This document shows, in pieces, positions 7,676-23,038 of a stretch of DNA of 25,658 nucleotides; position 1 is the stretch's first letter; each line of letters begins with the position of its first letter. Under the pieces are notes generated by a model. It saw only the letters and a list, made by a program, of their open reading frames with translations, was not told the origin of the DNA and searched no databases. A program made the translations under genes and the position numbers. Origin of the DNA: a virus; the IMG/VR virus record IMGVR_UViG_3300026521_000031, positions 1 to 25,658 of that record. One strand, 5' to 3'.

Positions 7676-7716
7676 TGTTTTCCCTTTGTTTTCTTTGTTT
7701 TTCTTTTTGTAACCGA

Positions 7717-7783
7717 ATTGTAACATCTTAAACCTTAAAATAAAATAAAATTAACTAAAGATTTTAAAGAATGTTACAAAAAC
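7717..7783 (-). promoter_or_regulatory. Host-type early promoter, module 1
   Basis: On the minus strand an AT-rich block with phased T runs (7734-7783) leads to GATGTTACAATTC, an extended -10 box TGTTACAAT (box at 7717-7722). No -35 is evident. The T-rich block recurs almost base for base at 8158-8205. Confidence 0.6.
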
Positions 7784-8112: not shown

Positions 8113-8141
8113 TTTAACCCCTTGTTTGTTTTGATAATCGT

Positions 8142-8205
8142 ATTATAACAATTGTAACCTTAAAATAAAATAAATTAACTAAAGATTTTAAAGAAATTAC
8201 AAAAT
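8142..8205 (-). promoter_or_regulatory. Host-type early promoter, module 2
   Basis: The minus strand has the same T-rich block as module 1 followed by TTGTTATAATACG, a perfect extended -10 (TGTTATAAT, 8142-8150). It lies 30 bases before the first early gene. Periodic T tracts instead of a -35 resemble promoters of Campylobacterota. Confidence 0.65.
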
Positions 8206-8362: not shown

Positions 8363-8413
8363 GTAACATTAATAAGATATAGATTAGTTATAAATAGATA
8401 ATAATAGAATGAT

Positions 8414-8545
8414 TTGCTAAAGGTGCTTAAAGGTTCTTAATGTCCTAAAGAGTCTTAAAGATACTCAATAGTTCTTAATGTCTTAAAGATACTCAATAGT
8501 TCTTAAAGAGTCTTTGAGTGTCCTAAAGATGCTTGAAGTGTCTTG
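8414..8545. repeat. Array of CTTAAAG/CCTAAAG heptamers
   Basis: Plus-strand heptamers CTAAAGG, CTTAAAG, CTTAATG, CCTAAAG, CTTAAAG, CTTAATG, CTTAAAG, CTTAAAG, CCTAAAG and CTTGAAG occur at intervals of about 10 bases or multiples. A 28-base unit holding two of them and ACTCAATAG is directly duplicated. T7 has arrays of CCTAAAG-like heptamers next to its terminal repeats, and this is a close analogue. Confidence 0.65.
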
Positions 8546-8614
8546 AGACCCTATGGGGGGACTTGGAGGCTCTGGGATTATGATGATACCCATTGGAATT
8601 CCTAAGGTATTTTG

Positions 8615-8715
8615 AATTACCTTAAGCTCCTGCCAAAGAAGATACAAAGTGCCTACAAGAAGCTTGAGCAATCCTAACAGCGATACAAGCTTCTTGTAGT
8701 ATCTTAAGGAGCTAA
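8615..8715. repeat. Long imperfect hairpin with a perfect 14-bp core
   Basis: CTACAAGAAGCTTG (8653-8666) is repeated inverted at 8686-8699 with a 19-base loop. After short bulges the arms continue (AAGATAC with GTATCTT, CTTAAGCTCC with GGAGCTAAG), giving a structure of about 100 bases. A competing hairpin (TAAGGTA/TACCTTA) overlaps the left arm. Confidence 0.7.
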
Positions 8716-8788: not shown

Positions 8789-8839
8789 TATACTTTATGA
8801 TGTTTTTCATTGTTTTTGTTTATCCAGCTCCCAAGCAAA

Positions 8840-8960
8840 GGACACTATACAAGAGGTTACGACTTGCTCAAGGTAACTACTAGAGAGGTGCTGACCCTAC
8901 AGGCATTCTGTTTGGAATGTGTCCTGTGTAATCCTCTAGCTGTAACATTGTATAGTGTCC
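8840..8960. ncRNA. Candidate structured RNA or DNA element with nested stems
   Basis: A perfect 13-bp outer stem GGACACTATACAA/TTGTATAGTGTCC closes a 121-base element. Inside are GTTAC, which can pair locally with GTAAC at 8873-8877 or with GTAAC at 8942-8946 to extend the outer stem. There are also CTAGAGAGG/CCTCTAG (8880-8888/8933-8939) and a hairpin ACAGG-CATTC/GAATG-CCTGT (8899-8927). The strand is uncertain because stems form on both; neighbouring genes suggest minus. I do not recognise a known RNA family. Confidence 0.5.
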
Positions 8961-8981
8961 TACATAGCATAGTATCTTATA

Positions 8982-9005
8982 GAACCTTCGGAGGCAAGAA
9001 GGCTC
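8982..9005. repeat. 8-bp hairpin next to the structured element
   Basis: GAACCTTC and GAAGGCTC pair (one G-U) around an 8-base loop. The GAAGGCTC arm is shared with the two late hairpins near 18.1 and 18.5 kb. Confidence 0.5.
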
Positions 9006-9052
9006 AATAAGCTACTAATATATGTTAAGATGCTTAGGGCGGATGTTGACTA

Positions 9053-9066: not shown

Positions 9067-9129
9067 CCTTTATGATTGTTATCATTTGTTATGTCCTATC
9101 CTACTATGTCCACTATAATTACAAAAGTA

Positions 9130-9165: not shown

Positions 9166-9810
9166 TTAACTAAATCCCTTGAGTCCTCGTAGAGCCTTGG
9201 ACTTTCTAAGTGAATTACCTCGGTTGTACAGAGGATTACTCTTGAAACTTTTAGTAAATTCTTTTAACTGTTTGTCTAGCTGTCGTTCACGGTACTTACT
9301 AAGAGCATTGTCTAAGTTCTGTTCTAATACATCCCTCTCCAACCAATAGCTTACTGCTAGTGCTAATACATCTAGTCTATCATCGTGTCTTAACGACTGT
9401 CTATCCCTAGTTATATGTGAGAGTTGAAACATCAAACTATACATCATATTGCTAGGGTCTCTAAGAGCTGTTGTAACATCTTGAAGACAACTACTATAGT
9501 TAAATACAAGCCTATGCTGGTTCATTATAGGTTCTAGTGTGTCTATAATCCTAACCTCTTTCTGTATAGATACTCTAACCTCTTCTATATTACAAGGATA
9601 GATACTATTCAATATAGGTGCTAGTAATGAGCTAAACATACCATCACCAAAGTTTGCTTCAACATACACATCATTTACTTTGTATCTCTTAGCTATCTGT
9701 GATAGTTCCATAAGGTTTCTTTCGTTGTAACCTCCACGAATACCACCAAAATCTAACACATATAACCTACCTAATAGATGTGCTACTACACACCATCCCA
9801 TTTCGTCTGT
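9166..9810 (-). CDS. Large terminase subunit, exon 2 (nuclease domain)
   Basis: This exon supplies the C-terminal 214 residues of the packaging motor, the RNase H-like nuclease that cuts concatemers. It begins in frame with TDEMGWCVV and continues through GGIRGGY, VEANFGDGMF, DTLEPIMNQHRLV and HDDRLDVLALA, each matching T7 gp19 (GGFRDGY, YESNFGDGMF, DTLEPVMQTHRLV, HDDRLDALALG). There is no ribosome site at the internal ATG (9801), so it is not an independent gene. Joined to exon 1 it gives a protein of 573 residues, close to T7 gp19 (586). The splice point is deduced in the intron entry. Confidence 0.93.
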   Translation of the reverse strand, partial: TDEMGWCVVAHLLGRLYVLDFGGIRGGYNERNLMELSQIAKRYKVNDVYVEANFGDGMFSSLLAPILNSIYPCNIEEVRVSIQKEVRIIDTLEPIMNQHRLVFNYSSCLQDVTTALRDPSNMMYSLMFQLSHITRDRQSLRHDDRLDVLALAVSYWLERDVLEQNLDNALSKYRERQLDKQLKEFTKSFKSNPLYNRGNSLRKSKALRGLKGFS

Positions 9811-9822
9811 CTTTAGGGATAG

Positions 9823-10404
9823 TTATAATTTTATAGCTTTCCATTGTTTATGATGTTTTCTTGTACCTTTAGCTACTTTCCTTAAGTTCTGTGGTGTTAG
9901 ATTATGTTCTTTACAGAATAGTGTAAATACTTCAGGTCTATACTCATTACCATCAGGGTCTATTAATAGATACTTTTCACCTTTACCATAGTTATGTGGT
10001 GTATTTCCTTTAGTAAACTTACCATCATAATCGTTACACTCAGTACATAGGTGTTTACTGTTTGAATAACCTTTAGGTAAATATTTACCACAGTTACTAC
10101 ATACGACTGTGCTTCTATTACCTCCTGCTTGTATATTCCATCCTATATATCTATTAGGTCTAAGTTCATATTCTTTATCTAAAGCTTCTTCTTTAGTACC
10201 TCTAAATAACTCTACTACTTTTATATCAATTCCAGTATCTTTTAACTCTCGTAATATATAACCTACTGGTCTTTTACTATGCAGATGCTGTCCTAATCTA
10301 TGGAATATGCTATTTTTTGTAACACCAACATAACCTTGAGTTTTATAATCACTCATACCTTCTGTATATATCCAATATACTCTATATAATCTTGTTTTTT
10401 GCAT
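9823..10404 (-). CDS. Intron-encoded GIY-YIG homing endonuclease
   Basis: This encodes a 193-residue enzyme that would cut intronless terminase alleles to spread the intron. The GIY-YIG module spans residues 7-92: YRVYW (GIY strand), YVGVT (YIG strand), Arg36, the catalytic Glu in KEYELRP (78/80) and Asn90 in GWNIQAGG. A zinc finger with Cys102, Cys105, Cys120 and Cys123 follows. The C-terminal 50 residues (LIDPDGNEYRPEVFTLFCKE to KQWKAI) match the DNA-binding module seen at the end of many phage homing endonucleases. All key residues are present, so it looks active. It has its own AGGAG site, within the intron. Confidence 0.93.
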   Translation of the reverse strand: MQKTRLYRVYWIYTEGMSDYKTQGYVGVTKNSIFHRLGQHLHSKRPVGYILRELKDTGIDIKVVELFRGTKEEALDKEYELRPNRYIGWNIQAGGNRSTVVCSNCGKYLPKGYSNSKHLCTECNDYDGKFTKGNTPHNYGKGEKYLLIDPDGNEYRPEVFTLFCKEHNLTPQNLRKVAKGTRKHHKQWKAIKL

Positions 10405-10440
10405 TTATATTCTCCTCACAATGCTTCTATTTTAACTCAT

Positions 10441-10640
10441 ATTACTATGAGGTTCGGACTATATCTTTACCTTATCGGTAGCTACCACTTCCACTCTCTT
10501 GAGCGTACTAATAGTCTCTGAACTTTCCTATACTATTATAGGCTTAGCTGCTGATTACCCTTAACTTAATAATAGGACTTCCAGTCAATTCAATAGCTGT
10601 TTATTTAGGTTCTTCACCAAGGAACAGGCACAGACAATTT
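10441..10640 (-). ncRNA. Group I ribozyme core
   Basis: Conserved elements appear in order on the minus strand. They are P1 with the internal guide (near 10649-10620), the P4 side AATCAGCAGCTAAGCC (10541-10556), the P6 hairpin CCTATA-ATAG-TATAGG, the R element GTTCAGAGACTAT (10511-10523) and the S element AAGATATAGTCC (10456-10467). GACTA of R pairs with TAGTC of S to make P7. The R and S sequences fit the group IA/IB type common in phages. Confidence 0.93.
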
Positions 10641-11717
10641 ACCAGTTCCAGCAGGGTCAATAGCTAGTATTACACCTTCGTATTTCTTTAGGTCATCTGA
10701 GATAGTACCAGGTCTATGTAGTTTATCACCTCTAAAACCTACATTTGGAATATCAGAGATTTCCTTAGAAGCCTCACTGCTCCAAGTGATACTAGCAGGA
10801 CCTTCAAATGTATCAAGGTCTGTTACGATTAAGTCTTTTAGTTTCAATGGATACTTTTCAGCATCACTTAATGTTGTATCTAACATAAATTGTAATTTAA
10901 ACCCTGAGCGTCCATAACGGTTCTCTCTTAGTATAAGGTCTTCTTCAGTAAACCTAGGTTCTGTTGTAGTACCAATAATACTAGGGTCTTTAGCCATAAC
11001 TTCAACCATATAAGGAGCTAAACAACCTTCATATATTGTAGTCTCCTCAGGATACCTAGCAGGGAATATACGAGTTACATATCCATCTTCTCTAAATCCA
11101 TTGTAGATACTCTCAGCACTTTGTGGTGTCCCCAATACAAGTATCTGAGCACCTTCAGTTGTTTGTAAGATAGCTTCGAACTCTGCTGTTTGGTTTCGTA
11201 ACTGCTCTCTTCTCATCTCTGTAGCTGAGTTCTGTTGTCCCTCAACGTCATCTGAGATTAACAGTGATGCCCTATTACCTTGTAACTGACTTGTAATACC
11301 TAGAGCTCTTAGAGAAGGTTGTACAGATACCTCACAACCATTTACATCAAATGCTGTATTACTAGTTCTATGTCCTTTACTCATATCAGGTTTTAAGTGT
11401 GATAGTAAAGGCATAGTCTCAATTAACTTACGAATAAATATAGCAATATTATCTGAGTGTCCACCTGACTGTGATACAATAAGTATCTTCTCATTAGGGT
11501 CTCTCAACAGACGCCAAGCAGCAAACGCACCAGTTATCCAAGTTTTACCTGCACCTCTCAGTGCTTGTAGAACTGACCTACTATGACCTTCCTGTAGAAA
11601 GTCTGCTATCTCATATTGTAATCTACTAGGCTCAGGTAACCTTAAGTGCTCCCAACATATCTTTAGGAATACTTTAAAGTCTGATAGAGCTAATAGCTGT
11701 AATTTAGTGTTATTCAT
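10641..11717 (-). CDS. Large terminase subunit, exon 1 (packaging ATPase)
   Basis: This exon encodes residues 1-359 of the terminase. Visible motifs are Walker A RGAGKT (54-59), Walker B LLISDDVE (152-159) and the coupling motif LGTPQ (195-199). Long matches to T7 gp19 include [20 protein letters not shown] (T7: [20 protein letters not shown]) and AIDPAGTG. The Asp354 of IDPAG is the first catalytic acid of the nuclease, so the intron interrupts the active-site motif. Without splicing, translation runs 8 codons into the intron (to about 10614) and stops at TGA, giving an ATPase without nuclease. GGAGG precedes the ATG. Confidence 0.95.
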
Positions 11718-11838: not shown

Positions 11839-12087
11839 TTAAGACGCCATTGCTATCATATCTTCAACTGATAGTTTATCTGTAGTTGGCATCTTTAAAT
11901 GTTCTTTTATAGCTGTTCCTAATGAGTCACTACTATCATCTTCCATAAGGTCTGCTGTAATATCATTATCCTTTAGAAACTTGATAGCATTAGCAAGAAC
12001 CTTAGGGTCATCTAAGTTCGCCTTTAGTTCTCTTGCTACTGCTGCGTGTAATTCATTAAGAGCATCAAGACTAGCTTTACTCGCCAT
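11839..12087 (-). CDS. Small terminase subunit (gp18-like)
   Basis: This encodes an 82-residue acidic protein placed directly before the large terminase, as in T7. The segment LDALNELHAAVARELKANL, then a helix ending KFLKDNDIT, is typical of small terminase subunits of T7-like phages; the protein is about the size of T7 gp18 (89). It would bind the concatemer end and load the motor. AAAGGAG precedes the ATG. Confidence 0.8.
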   Translation of the reverse strand: MASKASLDALNELHAAVARELKANLDDPKVLANAIKFLKDNDITADLMEDDSSDSLGTAIKEHLKMPTTDKLSVEDMIAMAS

Positions 12088-21925: not shown

Positions 21926-23038
21926 CTATTGATATATTATACCACTAGCATCTAGTGTATTTACTGAAATATTTGTATCAGTCTCACCTGAAGCACCTTC
22001 TATAGATAGTGTTGAACCTCTTATAACAGCATACTCTTCTGTAGGGTCACCATCAGTAGAACAGTTGGAATAATCAGCAGCAATATGGGAATTATACTCA
22101 GCTATTATACTATAATTACCTGTATTTGTTGCAGTGGCACTTCTAGCACTAATTACCGAAGCTGAATTAGCTATTATTCCAAAACTCGCACTATTACTTG
22201 CATCAGCACTATTAGCATTTACTACTGAACCATAAGCAGCTTCAATACCATAACCACCTGTACCACTAGCATTAGCATTCTGAGCATTTATTGTTGAATT
22301 TCCTGTAGCAAAAATACCTCTAGCACCTGCACCACTAGCATCAGCACCTTTAGCATTTATTGTTGAACCATTGACTGCATAAATACCGTGACTACTAGCA
22401 CCACTAAATATACTTTCTCTAATATCTGCTGAAGAACTTTGTGTTGCTATAATACCGTGTTGACCCACATTCTTAACACCACAGCTAGCTAATACTTTAC
22501 ACTTACTGTTTTCTAAATGTATTCCATTGTTTTCAGAGCCACCGTTTATTGTAGTAAACAACTGTCCTATTGTAGGTAATACACCATTCTTAACACTAAA
22601 TGTAGGAGTATTAGTATTGTGATATTCCAAAGATGGTATATCAACAAAACTACCAGCATCTATAGTAGTCTCAGCATCCTCTCCAGTTATTGAAATCCAA
22701 CCTAAATCAATCCCTTTAATTATAACTTGTTCTTTCATTATAAAACCAGCAAGTAACTTAACCTCTACAGTATAACCACTTTGCTTATAAAGAGGATATA
22801 ACTTACTTAACTCTGTAAGTGCTTCATTTATAGTAGCATAATCTCCAGTATCTCCAACAGTTACCGTTTTATCTGCTGTTATGTCTGACCATAGAGCTAG
22901 AGGATACCCACCAGCTTTTGCACCGTTGTGTACCACCACTGTATTCTTATCAGTATCTACTGTTATCTCTCGCTCTGCTCCTGTAAAGGTACTATGTTCT
23001 GCTGTAGTACCGCCTCTTATTTGTAATTGCTTACTCAT
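21926..23038 (-). CDS. Tail fibre or spike with 23-residue beta-helix repeats
   Basis: This encodes a 370-residue protein. The N-terminus (LQIRGGTTAEHSTFTGAERE to NTVVVHNG) is the short attachment module shared by many phage fibres. Residues 60-130 resemble the opening of pectate-lyase-type beta helices (DYATINEAL). Residues 172-332 consist of seven units of exactly 23 residues, pattern GIxAxxxSxxNAxxAxASxxxxx, which build a right-handed beta helix. It probably binds or degrades a surface polysaccharide; no catalytic pair can be assigned. AAGGAG precedes the ATG. Confidence 0.85.
   Translation of the reverse strand: MSKQLQIRGGTTAEHSTFTGAEREITVDTDKNTVVVHNGAKAGGYPLALWSDITADKTVTVGDTGDYATINEALTELSKLYPLYKQSGYTVEVKLLAGFIMKEQVIIKGIDLGWISITGEDAETTIDAGSFVDIPSLEYHNTNTPTFSVKNGVLPTIGQLFTTINGGSENNGIHLENSKCKVLASCGVKNVGQHGIIATQSSSADIRESIFSGASSHGIYAVNGSTINAKGADASGAGARGIFATGNSTINAQNANASGTGGYGIEAAYGSVVNANSADASNSASFGIIANSASVISARSATATNTGNYSIIAEYNSHIAADYSNCSTDGDPTEEYAVIRGSTLSIEGASGETDTNISVNTLDASGIIYQ

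Follow-up and report, generated by a model that had tools for sequence, protein, structure and literature searches.

The right end of T7, which is among the best-studied viruses, has so far been described by proteins and DNA sites, in terms of phiOR, the terminal repeat and concatemer cutting, and to our knowledge T7 needs no packaging RNA. Its promoter phiOR lies 99 bp after gene 19 and is followed by the small gene 19.5; the distance from promoter to terminal repeat is 549 bp, and the repeat itself measures 160 bp, with AAAGTTCCCCCATAGG located roughly 20 bp inside the left terminus. The open-licence literature offered nothing on point concerning a noncoding RNA at this end. The pRNA of phi29-like phages maintains a conserved fold at a sequence similarity of 12% (PMC5340915). 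GOLLD and ROOL are elaborate phage-encoded noncoding RNAs of unknown function, and the expression of GOLLD increases during lysis (PMC12286853). For the T7-like phage LUZ100, whose transcriptome has been mapped, the available part of the report describes an antisense transcript thought to be noncoding, but no RNA of the kind considered here (PMC10134795).

The present locus lies in a virus contig of 25,658 nucleotides (IMG/VR record IMGVR_UViG_3300026521_000031, positions 1 to 25,658), the whole of which is termed the window. A structured element had been predicted there between terminase and genome end, overlapping no supported gene, and both statements proved correct: the supported genes around the element are on the minus strand, the element is 3' of the gene for the terminase large subunit (TerL), and the sole ORF over it is a mechanical 66-aa antisense frame. 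The surroundings resemble the T7 right end. In both, a promoter (predicted in the window) lies some 65-100 bp after TerL and 510-550 bp before the terminal repeat (likewise predicted in the window), a T7-type RNA polymerase (here encoded by the full-length relatives) accompanies the terminase, and AAAGT(T)CCCCCATAGG occurs near the terminus. The downstream content is different: in place of gene 19.5 there is a structured RNA, with no gene-strand ORF of at least 50 aa from 9166 to 8112 but a mechanical 62-aa TTG frame (8483-8671), and the T7 right end gave no match to the RNA model.

With the phi29-type pRNA the element has in common that it is a phage noncoding RNA with a three-way junction and a fold that outlasts its sequence; here it stands beside packaging genes. 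These, however, encode T7-type enzymes (TerS, TerL) and not a phi29-type packaging ATPase or prohead connector, the phage is not phi29-like, and the pRNA covariance model in Rfam gave no match in the region up to E = 5. GOLLD and ROOL are recognised by Rfam, span several hundred nt and are often near tRNA islands; the present RNA is much smaller, has no Rfam match and has no tRNA island nearby, the window holding no tRNA. Nor is it a group I intron or another catalytic RNA of Rfam, the window's only Rfam match (RF00028, 10435-10683) being the group I intron in the terminase gene, which occupies 9802-10683 on the minus strand. The intron ORF (9823-10404, 193 aa) looks by eye like a GIY-YIG homing endonuclease and had no match in Pfam.

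Architecture and covariation

The original prediction described a 121-base multi-stem element at 8840-8960 with a perfect 13-bp outer stem. The stems are real, yet the outer one is longer, 14 perfect base pairs (8839-8852 / 8948-8961) around further stems, and the extent was misjudged: the 121 bases form one arm, designated C, of an RNA of approximately 223 nt that runs on the minus strand from 9044 to 8822. The fold of 8840-8960 has z = -3.0 on the plus strand and z = -4.4 on the minus strand, and that of the closed unit 8822-9044 has z = -6.95. Perfect inverted repeats of at least 13 bp, with a spacing of at most 150, number three in the window, compared to a mean of 0.17 and a maximum of 2 in 60 dinucleotide shuffles; two of the three are located at the RNA region, near the predicted terminal repeat. 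The minus strand, the full extent, a second arm with a conserved loop, and the putative promoter had all been overlooked.

The features of the RNA and its surroundings are collected in the table. Single-sequence folds of the gene strand gave the same overall three-way junction in all nine sequences (the window and eight relatives), although the details of arm C vary between single folds. The strands of closing stem A are of the type CCAGC-CTC on the 5' side and GGGAGCTGG on the 3' side across the homologues. In arm B, the internal loop pattern is conserved as UAN/UGC in the homologues, and the GCCUCC at the end of the apical loop is invariant in 9/9, whereas its stem changes freely (for relative L007, where MAFFT misplaced this loop, it was taken from the sequence's own fold). 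Within arm C, P2 of L004 reads GUAUC/GAUAC, a compensatory exchange, and hand alignment gave UACUU/AGGUA, UAUCC/GGAUA, GACUU/AGGUC, CACU/AGUG and UGGG/UCCA as homologous forms of P3b. An initial reading had the P3b loop (CAGC) form a pseudoknot with the 3' strand GGGAGCUGG; it was abandoned because that same strand forms stem A with covariation.

Features of the RNA and of the surrounding region, in window coordinates
Feature	Positions	Strand	Basis
Terminase small subunit, DNA_Packaging_2, T7 gp18-like	11839..12087	-	Pfam
Terminase large subunit exon 1, within ORF 10614-11717; group I intron interrupts the gene	10614-11717	-	gene search and Rfam
Terminase large subunit exon 2, T7 gp19-like	9166..9801	-	gene search
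Predicted phage-RNAP-type promoter motif TAATTATAGTGGACATAGTAGGATAG, +1 near 9101	9096..9121	-	PWM, recurrence, phiOR position
Direct repeat, 5' copy, ~35-45 nt, A-rich, begins at +1	9068..9101	-	repeat comparison
Whole structured RNA, three-way junction, 223 nt	8822..9044	-	single folds, strand comparison, RNAalifold, pair counts
Stem A, 5' strand (ATCC-GC-CCTAAGC)	9032..9044	-	folds and alignment
Arm B hairpin, 3x3 internal loop UAU (9018-9020) / UGC (8967-8969)	8963..9024	-	folds and alignment
Arm B apical loop UUGCCUCC	8990..8997	-	folds
Arm C outer stem, 5' strand	8948..8960	-	12/14 pairs of the helix changed on both sides
P2, 5' strand GUUAC, partner 8856-8860	8942..8946	-	95.6% of cells paired
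P3, 5' strand, partner 8880-8885	8934..8939	-	100% of cells paired
P3a, extra hairpin, window and L168 only	8899..8927	-	alignment
P3b, hairpin GGGU-CAGC-ACCU	8886..8897	-	hand-aligned
P4, hairpin CUU-GAGC-AAG	8863..8872	-	hand-aligned, 3 mismatched cells
P2, 3' strand GUAAC	8856..8860	-	alignment
Arm C outer stem, 3' strand	8840..8852	-	alignment pair counts
Stem A, 3' strand (GCUUGGGAGCUGGAU)	8822..8836	-	alignment
Direct repeat, 3' copy, begins at end of stem A	8793..8825	-	repeat comparison
Conserved inverted repeat (14 bp) around TATCGCTGTTAGGATT, 3' of the RNA	8653..8699	-	inverted-repeat scan and homologues
Block with the highest DNA conservation in the region, AAGTCCCCCCATAGGG at its end; predicted terminal-repeat start	8549..8628	-	T7 likeness and G004 overlap

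The nine sequences were aligned by MAFFT without structural guidance, and the consensus structure was obtained from RNAalifold, which recovered the junction unaided. Its 50 pairs include 33 that are changed on both sides (34 by a separate pair count). Standard pairs occupy 91.1% of the cells, compared to 72.0 +- 1.4% in shuffled and 37-45% in slid alignments; the covariation score is 0.62 against 0.25 in the control, and 86 cells have both sides changed against 28.3 in shuffles. The observed pairing and covariation values were reached by none of 500 shuffles, bearing in mind that related sequences can outscore shuffles in the absence of structure; the slid controls, which retain this relatedness, score far lower, although an alignment-derived structure is still at an advantage there. 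Uncompensated loss of pairing in homologues, which the original prediction had named as evidence against itself, was looked for in this alignment, and the structure survived.

In 9/9 sequences the fold of the gene strand is more stable than that of the complementary strand (z from -3.8 to -8.4, compared to -2.3 to -6.3), which favours an RNA on that strand over a DNA hairpin. The helix cells contain 50 G-U and 2 A-C combinations, a ratio biased by the choice of helices under RNA rules. Coding was considered and rejected: reading frames, read directly from the sequences, differ between relatives, and no ORF of at least 50 aa occurs on the gene strand within the RNA. Compensatory changes on one strand and across homologues are the mark of structured noncoding RNA in general, and they strongly support the small-RNA role that had been among those suggested, in so far as it concerns a conserved RNA structure. 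Judged from the nine sequences, the element is almost certainly a conserved structured RNA.

The proposal of a two-state switch, in which the pentamer GTTAC would alternate between a local partner and one extending the outer stem, did not survive the comparison. Both pairings are possible in the window sequence alone. In the homologue alignment the local GTTAC/GTAAC helix is paired in 66.7% of cells, equal to the shuffled mean of 66.7%, whereas the outer-stem extension (P2) attains the high pairing given in the table, with compensatory changes present. The second GTTAC-type partner in the window is thus best read as a chance match.

Distribution among T7-like phages

Seven relatives (L004-L010), with terminase identities of 69-79%, were obtained by terminase search, and an eighth (L168) by a DNA pattern match. 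Sequence landmarks after the terminase are common to all eight, and the RNA follows TerL directly in all nine sequences. Because the length of the full unit precluded calibration, the covariance model used comprised arm C and the 3' strand of stem A. With it the RNA was found once per genome in each of the six genomes searched whole. The search was widened to more distant phages whose terminases are 36-53% identical and to 106 contigs that carry the promoter motif; beyond L168, none of these more than 100 other T7-like terminase loci and motif contigs matched, which implies that the RNA does not belong to the T7 machinery in general. Two further candidate copies were rejected, namely a pattern match in L208, which lies inside a coding region, and a GCCTCC hairpin in L052, which is a coincidence. 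No DNA match to the region was found in 50,697 phage records, the window region had no Rfam match up to E = 5, and a search of the seven homologous loci up to E = 1 yielded only an unrelated miRNA-like match elsewhere in L009.

Fold z-scores of the sequence following the terminase in other T7-like phages gave no sign of strong structure as a regular feature. The same scan led to a second and unrelated element, GGTTGCCCAATTGGAAA..., which in another T7-like clade follows TerL. It is matched by 20 stretches (L266 2499-2612, L268, L271, L274, L056, L069, L319-L323, L326, L328-L334 and L336). In 15 of these, some of which are almost the same in sequence, it stands 30-128 nt after the terminase; the remaining five are located elsewhere and resemble chance matches. 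It shares with the present RNA its genomic position after TerL and its conserved hairpins, yet differs in sequence and fold, having two hairpins and no three-way junction. Its covariation is weaker (5/26 pairs), and it gave no Rfam match above chance and no match in the phage records.

Promoter, repeats and genome end

In the window, the motif TTAGASTGGACATATTAGGA stands approximately 65 bp past the stop codon of the terminase, and every relative has it in the corresponding position. A PWM derived from such sites found, in six genomes, 28 sites on the gene strand and none on the reverse strand. In one mononucleotide shuffle 7 sites passed the loosest cut-off and 1 passed the strictest, at which 26 gene-strand sites were left. 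A T7-type RNA polymerase is encoded by all five full-length relatives (the window contig is partial), and both the motif and its position agree with T7 phiOR. By its position, strand bias and recurrence, the motif is likely to be a promoter for the phage's own RNA polymerase.

At the far side of the locus, AAAGTCCCCCATAG follows immediately after the strongly conserved block AATTCCAAKGGGTATCAT (window 8549-8628) in this clade. The ends of contig G004 overlap by 164 bp, and the overlap begins inside that block. A 127-bp end overlap in G005 was left out, its size being that of a common assembler word length. The G004 overlap and the T7-like terminus sequence together suggest that the terminal repeat probably starts near 8590, some 510 bp past the putative promoter, and the block is likely to be the region cut by the terminase. 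The same block, AATTCCAATGGGTATCATCA...AAGTCCCCCCATAGGG on the minus strand, has CCCCCATAGG in common with the left terminus of T7. Short degenerate repeats, TTAAAGAGTCTT and ATACTCAATAGTTCTT, are arrayed at 8400-8550, near the predicted terminal repeat.

The RNA is flanked by a pair of direct repeats. The two copies beat all 1000 shuffles in eight genomes, and in the window they reach 35 against a shuffle maximum of 36. The 5' copy is best matched by the 3' copy of its own genome in 7/9, while the repeat sequences differ between genomes; when one copy is searched for in a genome, its next-best match is usually the other copy. As for antisense targets, the genomes searched contain no strong complement of the repeats. 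The simplest idea is that they may be a pair of sites to which a single partner binds. In the interval from the RNA to the predicted terminal repeat, the conserved inverted repeat encompasses the motif CTGTTWGGATTS (CTGTTWGGATT, window 8669-8680, minus strand), which is present in G001-G005, G007 and G009, appears twice in this interval in several genomes, about 40 bp apart, and elsewhere is on the other strand. The inverted repeat and motif are possibly a pause or terminator site.

Possible functions and further features of the window

The occurrence of a conserved folded RNA with an apparent promoter in the right-end slot would point to a component that has been overlooked, at least in one clade; the T7-type life cycle may thus include an RNA that has escaped notice. 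Its covariance model and anatomy allow a new RNA family to be registered. The phage's T7-type polymerase would transcribe the RNA from a promoter of its own, which occupies the place of phiOR immediately past the terminase; the late RNA would bind a phage protein via its conserved internal and apical loops; and the protein-bound RNA would then act in right-end replication, concatemer maturation or DNA packaging. A role at the genome end is proposed because of the unbroken link to the terminase and genome end and the phage-type promoter. The unrelated conserved element directly after TerL in another T7-like clade also points toward it, while the T7 right end and the more than 100 terminase loci that lack a match point against it, as does the distance from the end of the RNA to the conserved terminal block, which varies from 167 to 473 bp across genomes. 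The genome-end role itself is advanced tentatively and falls somewhat short of an even chance; an RNA with its own promoter and some role at the genome end is the best single guess, on which belief and doubt are about balanced. The wider statement, that in some T7-type phages a dedicated RNA, transcribed at the right-end promoter, is a working part of packaging or concatemer maturation, is improbable on present grounds. If true, a terminase system regarded as purely protein-based would have an RNA cofactor, and the position behind TerL would be filled by unrelated RNAs in different clades.

The main rival, unlikely but a little less so than that wider statement, is a trans-acting regulatory RNA, the exposed GCCUCC loop of which would shift late translation by pairing with Shine-Dalgarno sequences, GGAGG(C), in mRNAs of the host or the phage. 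This reading accounts for the sole apical loop that is invariant while its stem varies, and phage genes do have GGAGG sites followed by start codons; the inconstant distance to the genome end likewise fits an RNA that acts freely better than one tied in cis to the junction. Yet no conserved target gene with GGAGGC(A) is evident across the genomes, and a simple antisense RNA needs neither a three-way junction and conserved internal loops nor some 190 nt of maintained structure. Less probable again is an element for the processing or stability of late mRNA, acting as a 3' barrier or an RNase III target that protects or trims read-through transcripts. Its long helices directly 3' of the last gene would suit such a function, but a promoter-like site of its own upstream of the RNA would not, and a large junction with conserved internal and apical loops exceeds the needs of a barrier for which a simple hairpin would do.

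A decoy or inhibitor RNA directed against a host defence system or nuclease is a distinctly poor prospect: it would suit a structured phage RNA that has no evident gene target and is confined to one clade, but the RNA resembles no Rfam family. Poorer still is the suggestion, made in the original prediction, of a DNA structure for concatemer processing, here a cruciform or hairpin for concatemer cutting or duplication of the terminal repeat. The closeness to the predicted terminal repeat and the over-representation of perfect inverted repeats, two of the three at this place, speak for it; it is nevertheless unlikely as a main function, given the better fold of the gene strand relative to the complement in all nine sequences, and the conserved asymmetric internal loops, the variable spacing to the genome end and the excess of G-U over A-C cells (subject to the bias mentioned) weigh against it as well. 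A two-state attenuator or riboswitch for a downstream gene, for which the two possible partners of the GTAAC strand in the window sequence alone were the sole attraction, can practically be dismissed, since the alternative helix is conserved at shuffle level only, so that two conserved exclusive folds were not found, and neither a terminator-like site nor a supported gene directly follows the RNA, the nearest supported same-strand ORF lying about 700 nt downstream, beyond the predicted genome end.

Several further features of the window were recorded in passing. Two copies of a sequence of about 80 bp, 84% identical (7700-7781 and 8125-8204), lie upstream of two small early ORFs and are probably repeated early promoters. 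On the minus strand, this T7-like phage likewise encodes a ThyX thymidylate synthase (1035-1736) and a tail protein that combines an Mtd_N domain with a beta-helix (21926-23038).
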